NCBI RefSeq assembly: GCF_003990725.2
Contig: NZ_CP030064.1
Span: forward strand, 1,550,001-1,614,000
Reading direction: 5' to 3'
Source: Halorubrum sp. PV6
GTDB taxonomy: Archaea; Halobacteriota; Halobacteria; Halobacteriales; Haloferacaceae
DNA: 64,000 nucleotides
Shown one piece after another: positions 22,323-25,934 of this stretch (within the stretch, counting starts at the first letter, position 1; every line of letters starts with the position of its first letter). The notes under the pieces are model-generated. The model did no database searches and was not told the DNA's origin. It saw only the letters and a program-made list of their open reading frames with translations. A program made the translations under genes and the position numbers.

Positions 22323-23627
22323 TTACGGCTCCAGCCGGTTCGGGTCGCGCGGGAACATGATCGCCTCTTTGATGTTGTCGAGCCCGGCGACCTGCTGGAC
22401 GAGCCGGTCGATGCCCAGCCCGTAGCCGCCGTGGGGCGGGGTGCCGTAGCTGAGCGCCTCGATGTAGAACTCGAAGTTGGCCGTCTCGACGCCCTCCGCC
22501 TCCATGACCTCGACCATGCGCTCGACGTTGTGTTCACGCTGGCCGCCGGAGGAGAGCTCCTGACCCTTATAAATGAGGTCGAACTTCCGAGAGGCGATGT
22601 CGTCGCCCTCGACGTCCTGCATGTAGTAGAACTTCTCGTCGGGGTAGCCGACGACGAAGAACGCGGGGTGGCCCTGCTCTTCGAAGTGTTCGCCGAGGAG
22701 TTTCTCGCCCTTCGTGTCGAGGTCGGTCGGGTCGTCCGGGAAGTGCCCGAACTCGGTCTCTAAGATGTCGAGCGCCTCGTCGAAGGTGATCCGCGGGAAG
22801 TCCTCTTCGGGAACTTCCAGGTCGACGTCGAGCAGGTCGAGCTCACGCCCGGCGTTCTCGGCGACCGCTTCGAGCGCGTACCGCAGCGACTCCTCTTGGA
22901 CGTCCATCACGTCGTCGTGGTCGTCGATGTACGCGAGTTCGACGTCGAACATCGCGATTTCGGAGACGTGTCGCGAGGTCGCGAAGTCCTCCGCGCGGAA
23001 CGCGGTGCCGGTCTCGTACACCGCCTCGTAGCCGGAGGCCATCAGCATCTGCTTGTACAGCTGCGGGCTCTGCGAGAGGAACGCGTCCTTGTTGTAGTAG
23101 AGGATCGGGAACAGCTCCGCGCCGCCCTCGGCGCCGCCCTTCGAGATGAGCGGCGTCTTGATGTCGACGAACCCCTCGTCGTCGAACCACTCCTCCATCG
23201 CCGTCATCAGCTCCGAGCGGAGCGTGAACACGGCGAGCGTCTCCGGCTTGCGCAGGTCGAGCGCGCGGTTGTCGAGCCGGGTCGAGAGATCGACTTCGAT
23301 GTCCTTCGATATCTCAAGCGGGAGCGGGGAGTCGGCCTCGTCGATGACCTCGTACTCGGTCGGCGCGATTTCGACGCCGCCGGGCGCCTGATCGCTTTCG
23401 AGCGGCTCGCCGACGACGCGGACCACGTCCTCCGCGCCCACGTCTTGGACGGCCTCGAACAGGTCCGGTTCGCGCTCTTCTTTAAATACGATCTGGATGA
23501 GCCCCTCGCGGTCGCGCACGATGAGGAAGACGAGACCTCCCAGGTCGCGGATTTCGTGGACGTGGCCGGCGATGGCGACCTCGTCCGCGTCCGGTTCGAC
23601 GGCCGACGTGTGGATTCGCTCGATCAT
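22323..23627 (-). CDS. aspS: Aspartyl-tRNA synthetase (archaeal type)
   Basis: A 434-residue class II synthetase. An OB-fold anticodon-binding domain (residues 1-100, with [15 protein letters not shown]) precedes the catalytic domain with motif 2 ([18 protein letters not shown]) and motif 3 ([14 protein letters not shown]). Archaeal AspRS is often non-discriminating and also charges tRNA-Asn; that depends on context not visible here. The ATG is at 23625-23627. Confidence 0.95.
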
Positions 23628-23797
23628 AACGGTGACTGCTTACGCGCAACTGGTCGGGCGTTCATCATAGGCCTGTCGTCTCGCCGTCGCCGGAACCGGG
23701 CGATGTGGGTCATCTGCGCGGGATTCGCGGTCACCGCCCGTCGGCGTCTGCGGCTATTTGTATGCTGTTTGTTACCGAGACACACTGCCGCCATAGA

Positions 23798-24052
23798 TTT
23801 AATAACTCCCCGACATATCGAGGGAACGACGGCGCGTTGCGCCGCCGGAATTCACGTATGACCCGCTTCCGTGCCACCGCCTCGGTGTCCGCCGCGCTCG
23901 TCAGCGGCGACTCCCTCGGCTGGGGCGGCGACGGGATTCCGGAGACACGGTCCGTCCGCCCGACCGCCTGACGCGCGTCGGCTGGGGAGTTCCCCGCGGG
24001 ACGGACCACACCCCGACTTCTCCAGCCGTCGCTGTGTCGCCCGTCGGCGGGC
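23798..24052 (+). promoter_or_regulatory. Promoter and structured leader upstream of the 24053 gene
   Basis: A TATA-like tttaataa at 23798-23805 predicts a start near 23828, right before a perfect hairpin cggcgc-gtt-gcgccg (23830-23844). A 37-codon ORF (23858-23971) follows. Its stop is covered by a candidate three-way junction: 23949-23957 pairs with 23999-24007 (9 bp), enclosing 23960-23964/23977-23981 and 23984-23987/23992-23995. Leader peptide plus competing hairpins is the layout of an attenuator or riboswitch-like device. No known class is recognised. Confidence 0.4.
23858..23971 (+). CDS. Putative 37-residue leader ORF
   Basis: An ATG-started 37-codon ORF (MTRFRATASVSAALVSGDSL...) lies between a promoter and the next larger gene. 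It contains one Trp (GWGGDGIPETR) but no run of a single amino acid that would point to amino-acid attenuation. Its stop falls within a predicted stem. It may be a translated regulatory peptide; no homologue can be named from sequence. Confidence 0.35.
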   Translation: MTRFRATASVSAALVSGDSLGWGGDGIPETRSVRPTA

Positions 24053-24463
24053 GTGACCACCACCCTCGCGAGCGTCGAGTCCGCAGACGGCGGGCTGACG
24101 TTCGAGGCCGCGGACCGGTCCGCGCCGCGTTCGACTCGCGGCGAGGGTCTCATGGCAGCAGCCATCCACACACACGTCGTCGAAGCGCGGATGACCGTTC
24201 GCGTCTCACAGACCGCGAGCGGCGACCTCGCCGCCGGCGCCCGCGCGCAGTTGGAACGCGTCGACGGGGTCGCCGTCGACGACCTGTCGATCGTCGGGCT
24301 CCAACCGGGGCTCAACGACACGACGGTCGAGGCGGTCGCGACCCTCTCGCTCCGCCACGGCGACCGGCCCGGCGAGTGCGCAGCCGAGACCGTCGCCGAC
24401 CGCCTCGCGGACGGGTTCGGCGTCGAACCGGAGCGCGTCGAGCGCGTCGAACCGCCGGGCTGA
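24053..24463 (+). CDS. Haloarchaeal protein of unknown function
   Basis: A 136-residue frame opening at a GTG. The part from the ATG at 24152 (MAAAIHTHVVEARMTVRV) has alternating strand and helix segments (DDLSIVGLQPGLNDTTVEA, DRLADGFGVEPERVERV) that look like a small alpha/beta domain, possibly a ferredoxin-like fold. I do not recognise a family. The start may be the ATG at 24152 rather than the GTG. It stands behind the structured leader and converges with larC. Confidence 0.5.
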   Translation: MTTTLASVESADGGLTFEAADRSAPRSTRGEGLMAAAIHTHVVEARMTVRVSQTASGDLAAGARAQLERVDGVAVDDLSIVGLQPGLNDTTVEAVATLSLRHGDRPGECAAETVADRLADGFGVEPERVERVEPPG

Positions 24464-24482
24464 CGGCGAGTTTCGCCTCGGC

Positions 24483-25934
24483 CTACTCGGCTTCGAGTCG
24501 GTCCCAGACAGCCTGCTCGGCCCGGCGGACCACGTCCCGTATCGGGACGCCGGTCGCCTCGGCGGCCGCGGCGGCGTCGTCGAACTCCGCGCTCACGTCG
24601 TAGATGTCGCCGTCGACGGTCGCGGCGACTTTCACGGTCACCTCGCGGTCGTCGCCGTCGAGCGAGAGCGCGACGGTCTCGAACTCGCGGTCGGCGATCC
24701 ACCGGTGGCTCGCACCCGACTGGCGGACGCCCAGCGTCCCCGTCTCGCGGGCGAGCCGCGCCGCGACCGCCTCGGCGTCGTCGGGCTTGCAGATCACCTT
24801 CACGAGGTGTCCCGGCCGCGACTTCTTCATCGTGGTCGGGACGATCGTCACGTCCCGTGCGCCGGCGCGTTTGAGCGTCGCCTGGAGCCCGCCGAGCACC
24901 TCGGGCGCGGCGTCGTCGAGGTTCGTTTCGAGGACGGCGATGTCGTCGTGAACCAGATCGCCGCCGCCGCGAGTCGCGCCTGCGTGAGGGCGGTCGTGGC
25001 CCGCAGCGGCCGCGTCGCCCCCCTCACCGACGAGCACGCGGAGGACGTTCGGGTGGCGGTCGAACGACGCGTCGCCCGCCCCGTACCCCGTCGAATCGAC
25101 CGAGAGGTCCGGAATCGCGTCGGCCCCCTCGGCGACCGCGCCGAGTATCGCGGCCCCGGTCGGCGTGAGCAGTTCGCGCTCCACCGGCCCGCCGACAACC
25201 GAAAAGTCGGCCGCGGCAGCGACCTCGGTCGTCGCCGGCGCGGGAACCGGGTAGACGCCGTGGCTCATCGCCACCTCGCCGCCCCCGGTCGCCACCGGCG
25301 TCGTCACGACTCGGTCCGGGTCGAGGTCGTGGAGGAGCAGCGCCGCGCCGACCACGTCGGCGATGGCGTCGTCGGCGCCGACCTCGTGGAAGTGCGTCTT
25401 CGCGAGGTCGGTGCCGTGGACCGTCGCCTCCGCGCGCCCGAGCCGTTCGAAGGCGTCCAGTGCGACCGCCTCGACGGACTCGGGGAGGCCCATCGACTCG
25501 ACGAGCGCGACGACCTCCGGGTAGCTTCGGTGGACGCCGGCGCCTTCGGCGTGATCGGCGTGGCCGTGTGCGTCACCGTCGTCGTGCGAGTGGTCGTGTG
25601 CGTCACCGTCGTCGTGCGAGTGGTCGTGGCCGTGAGCGTGATCATGGCTATTATCGTGCGCGTCACCGTCCTCGTGGCCGTGTTCCGCACCGTCACCACC
25701 CTCGTGGCTGTGTTCCGCACCGTCACCACCCTCTCTTTCGTCGTCGCCGTCGAGAAGCACGTCGACGGTCGTCGCCCGGATCCCGTTTCGCTCCGTCTCC
25801 CCGATGTCGTACCGGACGGGGAGTCGGTCGGTCACGACAGAGAGGACGTCGGGGTCGGCGCCGGCCGCGATCAGCGCCGCGCAGATCATGTCGCCGGCGG
25901 CGCCGGTCCGACCGTCGAAAACGAGCGTTCGCAT
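24483..25934 (-). CDS. larC: Nickel-pincer cofactor biosynthesis protein LarC
   Basis: The 483-residue protein starts MRTLVFDGRTGAAGDM and matches LarC/DUF111, with KTHFHEVGADDAIADVVGA, LTPTGAAILG, and the C-terminal ETNLDDAAPEVLGG and TTMKKSRPGHLVKVICKP motifs. LarC inserts nickel into the pyridinium pincer cofactor of lactate racemase LarA. Between residues 68 and 128 it has a His-rich acidic insert with about 17 histidines, which may store or deliver nickel. LarA, LarB and LarE are not in this window. The start was set at the ATG at 25934 from family similarity. Confidence 0.9.
   Translation of the reverse strand: MRTLVFDGRTGAAGDMICAALIAAGADPDVLSVVTDRLPVRYDIGETERNGIRATTVDVLLDGDDEREGGDGAEHSHEGGDGAEHGHEDGDAHDNSHDHAHGHDHSHDDGDAHDHSHDDGDAHGHADHAEGAGVHRSYPEVVALVESMGLPESVEAVALDAFERLGRAEATVHGTDLAKTHFHEVGADDAIADVVGAALLLHDLDPDRVVTTPVATGGGEVAMSHGVYPVPAPATTEVAAAADFSVVGGPVERELLTPTGAAILGAVAEGADAIPDLSVDSTGYGAGDASFDRHPNVLRVLVGEGGDAAAAGHDRPHAGATRGGGDLVHDDIAVLETNLDDAAPEVLGGLQATLKRAGARDVTIVPTTMKKSRPGHLVKVICKPDDAEAVAARLARETGTLGVRQSGASHRWIADREFETVALSLDGDDREVTVKVAATVDGDIYDVSAEFDDAAAAAEATGVPIRDVVRRAEQAVWDRLEAE
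25565..25730. repeat. Two pairs of 30-bp tandem repeats encoding the LarC His-rich insert
   Basis: Units at 25565-25594 and 25595-25624 are identical or nearly so, and units at 25671-25700 and 25701-25730 differ at one base. Each 30-base unit adds ten residues, so copy changes keep the frame. They encode the SHDDGDAHDH-type and EGGDGAEHxH-type stretches. Confidence 0.85.

Follow-up and report, generated by a model that had tools for sequence, protein, structure and literature searches.

We identified a conserved 5′ leader in Halorubrum sp. PV6 in which a tRNA-like element lies directly before the start codon of an uncharacterised gene, downstream of a short open reading frame (mini-ORF) and a three-way RNA junction. 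On balance, we favour the reading that this leader contains a t-element cut by tRNase Z, and probably by RNase P as well, to release a leaderless mRNA, and that translation of the mini-ORF is able to open the junction; sequence comparisons, both within Halorubrum and across the order, are what recommend it. Most haloarchaeal mRNAs have no leader, and among the RNA leaders of archaea few are understood. The window analysed is a 64,000-nt stretch of contig NZ_CP030064.1, to which all coordinates refer (Table 1). The original prediction for this region was of an attenuator or riboswitch layout; the tRNA-like element was absent from it because the range it listed ended at 24052, before the true start of the gene.

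Table 1. Positions of the leader elements, the downstream gene and the flanking genes in the window.
Feature	Position	Strand	Remarks
aspS	22323-23627	-	5′ side of the plus-strand leader-gene unit
TATA box TTTAATA	23798-23804	+	invariant in 16/16 aligned Halorubrum loci
Predicted transcript start	about 23826-23830	+	placed from the TATA box
5′-terminal 6-bp hairpin CGGCGC-GTT-GCGCCG	23830-23844	+	arms mostly kept in alignment; forms in computed fold
Mini-ORF, 37 codons + TGA, MTRFRATASV...RSVRPTA	23858-23971	+	open in 16/16 Halorubrum loci
Three-way junction closed by P1	23949-24007	+	P1 = 23949-23957 with 23999-24007
Junction arm P2	23960-23981	+	loop carries mini-ORF stop 23969-23971
Junction arm P3, GGGG/CCCC	23984-23995	+	loop length varies 1-3 nt
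Conserved CTTCTCCAGCC	24017-24027	+	TCTCCAGCC invariant in 16/16 Halorubrum loci
tRNA-like element	24062-24149	+	acceptor 24062-24068 with 24142-24148; T-arm 24125-24141, loop TTCGACT; discriminator-like C24149
Predicted tRNase Z cut after 24149	24149-24152	+	would leave a 2-nt leader (UC-AUG); acceptor-to-ATG 2-3 nt in 16/16
Gene for 103-aa protein	24152-24463	+	profile matches across order; codon-position pattern of a real gene
larC	24483-25934	-	3′ side of the plus-strand leader-gene unit

A coding start at GTG 24053 was rejected: relatives differ by 1 nt in length just before ATG 24152 (CTCATG versus TATG), which breaks the upstream frame, and the stretch that would extend the frame to GTG 24053 is taken up by the tRNA-like element. 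Judged from these alignments, the gene starts at ATG 24152, not at GTG 24053. Folded alone, positions 24062-24149 have as their minimum free energy structure a four-way cloverleaf (z -2.67): its acceptor has 7 bp (ACCCTCG/CGAGGGT), its D-like arm is long, its middle arm is short, and its T-arm reads CCGCG-TTCGACT-CGCGG. The T-stem has five of five pairs in all 16 aligned Halorubrum loci, and the acceptor has seven of seven in 11, with imperfect pairing in the other five; acceptor pair 1-72 occurs as A-U, C-G or U-A, and two more divergent loci, L051 and L053, have CCTCACG/CGTGAGG and CCCCACG/CGTGGGG, respectively. Only one of the 766 ATGs on the two strands of the window, ATG 24152, is abutted by a T-arm, and among the 11 sites returned by a pattern search for this layout in the same genome, a 5/5 T-stem is found solely at the leader of this gene. 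The element is too divergent to be called by ARAGORN or matched by Rfam, and the window contains no recognised tRNA with an anticodon arm, as a functional tRNA gene would have; a tRNA acceptor stem and T-arm whose 3′ end abuts the RNA that would be released are instead the marks of a putative t-element.

Profile matches to the 103-aa protein occur in 223 of 392 genomes sampled from the order (64/95 genera), and the arrangement of T-arm and start codon was followed in 60 of these 223, picked for genus spread, together with 11 further loci (71 in all, with the second-paralogue locus L024 left out; 74 with three plasmid copies). A T-arm abuts the ATG in 59/71 loci, with 5/5 T-stem pairs in 47 and 4/5 in 12; a first script that asked for perfect stems had left out several loci. 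The chosen ATG lies 2-5 nt past the acceptor in 53 of the 59, while for the remaining six the ATG that had been chosen is a later in-frame one, and the nearest is 0-3 nt away. The TTCRA T-loop is missing in 12 of the 71, ten of which – eight Halorubrum paralogues, L133 and L135 – have GGAATCGACT at the same place; L174 and L177 lack a clear T-arm. When each genus label is represented by one locus (n = 43), T-stem pair 52-62 is CG in 20, AT in 15, GC in 6, TA in 1 and TG in 1, and perfect Watson-Crick 7-bp acceptors are present in 17 loci, against 0.9 expected from shuffled 3′ strands. The acceptor 5′ strand had to be found by scanning in the non-Halorubrum families, and a first control, in which G-U pairs were allowed, 150 nt were searched and strands were swapped between loci, hardly separated the observed acceptors (34/59) from the control (31.5 %), whereas the stricter Watson-Crick test did so. 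At the level of sequence, T-stem pairs vary in a compensatory way across genera, and covariation is seen within both the T-arm and the acceptor.

The span of the element varies from about 45 to 147 nt while the acceptor and T-arm stay. At one extreme of likeness, the elements of L149 and L150 resemble a nearly intact tRNA-Glu, being called tRNA-Glu(UUC) by ARAGORN and tRNA by Rfam at 59 bits, as might be expected if the element were a captured or decaying tRNA gene, positioned by chance and without present function. That origin is contradicted by the covariation and strikes us as highly improbable: the compensatory changes, the constant spacing to the ATG and the occurrence in many genera and on plasmids all point to long-term constraint. 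Two genomes have a single full copy each of the tRNA-Glu-like element, and matches elsewhere are only partial; ARAGORN alone calls a tRNA in a few loci besides L149 and L150, and single-sequence folds of the L128 and L160 elements show no tRNA shape. In the leader region of L149, the tRNA-Glu-like element is preceded at 499-575 by another tRNA-like unit, which ARAGORN calls tRNA-Asp(GUC). The three plasmid copies, annotated as “hypothetical protein” in Halostagnicola, Halomontanus and Natrononativus, also carry the element; these copies (L210, L211 and L212) adjoin a DEAD/DEAH helicase gene, and two of the three have a ParA gene nearby as well; the leader-gene unit may therefore be mobile.

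Within Halorubrum, leader and gene are present or absent together. A model of the leader core (R1) matches once in each of 36 of the 52 genomes, exactly those that have the main protein (E below 1e-20), and in all eight tested of the 16 genomes without the block, aspS and larC are neighbours, separated by a short spacer that holds no leader. Thus, the leader is that of the small gene, with which it appears and disappears. Some Halorubrum genomes contain another, weaker paralogue, which likewise has a leader, and all 25 loci found in a named-genome search with the protein alignment belong to Halorubrum. At the 5′ end, the TATA box and the perfect 6-bp hairpin of the original prediction are both present; the DNA directly upstream of TTTAATA is unalignable among the 16 loci, while TTTAATA itself is kept in every one. 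A second promoter adjoining the gene was ruled out, since none of the 16 loci has another 8-mer with at least seven A/T between TTTAATA and ATG 24152. The minus-strand ORF at 23731-24702 has no family match. In the flanking genes, a block upstream of aspS, CATAGGCCTGTCGTCT at 23660-23690, is retained also by genomes that lack the leader and is perhaps part of the aspS promoter or leader, and LarC has a His/Asp-rich repeat insert, encoded at 25510-25710, between its N-terminal part and the remainder.

The 37-codon mini-ORF was correctly predicted, and its frame survives 6-nt in-frame indels in all 16 aligned Halorubrum loci, where it starts with ATG in 15 and GTG in 1 and stops with TGA in 13, TAA in 2 and TAG in 1. 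Comparison of dN and dS in two Halorubrum clades revealed no purifying selection on the peptide: for codons 1-26, dN was 0.168 versus a dS of 0.064 in clade A, and 0.091 versus 0.143 in clade B, where dN equals dS over the whole ORF; the corresponding values for the downstream gene in the same two clades are 0.093/0.357 and 0.071/0.284. With the peptide unconserved and the frame kept, it therefore seems, from these alignments, that the frame rather than the peptide matters. A similar mini-ORF was found in 50/74 loci of other families and paralogues, versus 1/370 order-2 Markov shuffled sequences, by a rule that required a small-residue end before the stop plus a suitable start or TATA box, and that rewarded MT starts; the frequent occurrence of T at position 2 and of AA at the end across the order is consequently in part a product of the search. 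A neighbourhood control gave 19/456 in a set that includes the true loci, and a stricter scan found fewer mini-ORFs than 50/74. Stops in one locus per genus label (31) are TAA in 13, TAG in 10 and TGA in 8.

The mini-ORF stop falls within the junction in all 16 Halorubrum loci, and the 9-bp stem that was predicted to close this junction, P1, is present, with GGTCCGTCC (23949-23957) pairing with GGACGGACC (23999-24007). The junction is the most conserved stretch of the leader (65/91 positions invariant across the 16 loci), and the P3 region is not coding, as its loop changes in length among relatives. Its folding energy is weak (z -1.36, with 18/200 shuffles equally good), and that of the 345-nt leader corresponds to a z of -2.05. 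Covariation, the check originally suggested for the stems, gave a divided answer. Among 39 Halorubrum copies, two-sided change was seen in 1/25 pairs, no better than in shuffles, because the sequence hardly varies; in other families, an analogous helix of different sequence, unrelated from one family to the next, joins the last mini-ORF codons to the RNA behind the stop, with at least nine Watson-Crick pairs in a run in 32/50 loci where shuffled downstream strands would give about 2.7. We consider this cross-family helix the best support that sequence offers for the P1 stem.

Being compact and nearly invariant, the junction could be imagined as a riboswitch for a small metabolite, as the original prediction also proposed, and this part of it did not hold up. 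Such a function appears very remote: there is no Rfam match at the gathering score (at E up to 5, one sub-threshold CRISPR-repeat hit was returned) and no support for a ligand, the gene belongs to no recognisable pathway, and the junction sequence is confined to a single genus, the R1 model matching 22 of the 392 sampled genomes of the order, all of them Halorubrum, in a search that scored 10 candidates per genome and could have missed distant copies.

The position of the mini-ORF stop in the junction, along with the helix formed by the last codons in most families, could also be accommodated by a ribosome-mediated attenuator or translation-coupled switch, in which the position of the ribosome on the mini-ORF would select between the junction and a helix of 23980-23989 with 24017-24027, and the tRNA-like part would be a relic. 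The conserved CTTCTCCAGCC at 24017-24027, interrupted by 2 nt in L051 and L053, fits such a scheme, as it could pair with GGCTGGGGAG at 23980-23989 as an alternative to P3. We nonetheless regard this as decidedly unlikely, since no TTTT or other run of T that could act as a terminator occurs in 23828-24152, the mini-ORF has no repeated codon, and the T-arm beside the ATG is the most widely kept part of the leader rather than a relic. A codon-sensing leader peptide is likewise unsupported, because dN/dS shows the peptide to be unconserved. What stands of the attenuator layout is the conserved structured leader with a mini-ORF ending in a junction that a ribosome could open; a T-run and a conserved peptide it lacks, and the term would apply only loosely, to a leader that is translated. 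Between the junction and the tRNA-like element, the L118-L177 leaders of several families show, by eye, recurrent copies of a GAGAGRCATCGCT-like motif and of TTCTC, a pyrimidine motif.

The constancy of acceptor, T-arm and spacing to the ATG, next to a middle part that is free to vary, is consistent with a tRNase Z substrate that yields a leaderless mRNA. In the processing scheme that we prefer, a 5′ leader of roughly 325 nt would be transcribed from the TATA box at 23798 and would contain, in order, a translated mini-ORF, a junction formed partly from its last codons and a t-element directly before the start codon. tRNase Z, and probably also RNase P, would recognise the acceptor/T-arm helix and cut after 24149, and the product would be a practically leaderless mRNA, the kind that haloarchaea readily translate. 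A ribosome reading the mini-ORF to its stop would have to melt P1, and translation might thereby alter the fold before the t-element and, with it, the yield of released mRNA; it is from this need to open P1 that gating of cleavage by the mini-ORF is proposed. In a more elaborate and considerably more speculative version, the leader would be a translation-gated tRNA-mimic switch: completion of the mini-ORF would refold the junction and let or prevent excision by RNase P and tRNase Z, the gene would be switched by making leaderless mRNA or not, and the 5′ product could be CCA-tailed and functional.

The main rival to tRNase Z processing is that the encoded protein, or else an enzyme that modifies or charges tRNAs, binds the tRNA-like element, with autoregulation by tRNA mimicry without cleavage. 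As predicted, the downstream gene is uncharacterised: the 103-aa protein has no match in Pfam or NCBIfam, and PDB profile searches and fold searches returned nothing specific. Its structural model (pLDDT 79, pTM 0.69) has a beta-alpha-beta-beta-alpha-beta topology, a small alpha/beta (ferredoxin-like) fold that matches, among others, ribosomal S6, EF-1 beta and a PheRS domain; these would suit an RNA-binding role of this kind, but the matches are weak (best Z 9.1; Foldseek E 1.5e-3). Likewise, the enzyme that forms pseudouridine 54/55 in the tRNA T-loop is encoded by pus10, and of the 21 non-Halorubrum loci of the same family that were examined (L178-L180, L188 and L190-L206), 19 have pus10 downstream in the same orientation, yet it is not found near the small gene in Halorubrum or in any of 10 examined loci of other families. 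In the one locus tested by profile (L179), rnhB follows pus10. As the fixed 2-5 nt distance to the ATG and the persistence of acceptor and T-arm at such variable spans suit a tRNase Z substrate, we consider regulation by tRNA mimicry unlikely. If processing by tRNase Z is correct, an order-wide leader would make a leaderless message by tRNA processing, tied to translation of a mini-ORF, and an uncharacterised family of small proteins, often encoded beside pus10, would be linked to tRNA biology.

Several known systems share features with this leader. In mitochondrial tRNA punctuation, a tRNA is cut out immediately ahead of a start codon, which leaves an almost leaderless mRNA, much as we predict here; however, mitochondria use a chain of functional tRNAs, whereas the haloarchaeal element is mostly a degenerate tRNA mimic in the leader of a single gene. 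Bacterial ribosome-mediated attenuators and uORF leaders similarly have a short ORF that overlaps alternative RNA structures – its translation is presumed in our case – but the present leader has no terminator, no repeated regulatory codons and no conserved peptide. As in tmRNA, a single primary RNA would combine a tRNA-like domain with a mini-ORF, one that in most loci ends in AA; the leader differs from tmRNA in that this ORF starts at an ATG of its own and precedes an uninterrupted tRNA-like domain, rather than being placed between two halves of it. ARAGORN found no tmRNA in the window, and none is known from archaea. In the open-access literature, we found no description of such a leader, though Hoelzle et al. 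2012, on tRNA-like elements of H. volcanii, may already list one member. According to the accounts given in PMC4326828 and PMC4946936, tRNase Z cuts a tRNA-like element upstream of the H. volcanii 5S rRNA, RNase P also cuts t-elements, and engineered t-elements in Haloferax release crRNAs. Going by the summaries of Hoelzle 2008/2012 in PMC4326828 and PMC7714728, that 5S rRNA element and the present one have in common a tRNA-like fold, with acceptor and T-arm kept, directly upstream of an RNA to be released in a haloarchaeon. Their sequence features suggest that the leader belongs to this known t-element kind, as a variant in which the element, with cleavage predicted, precedes the start codon of a protein and stands in a conserved leader with a mini-ORF and junction, and recurs across the order.
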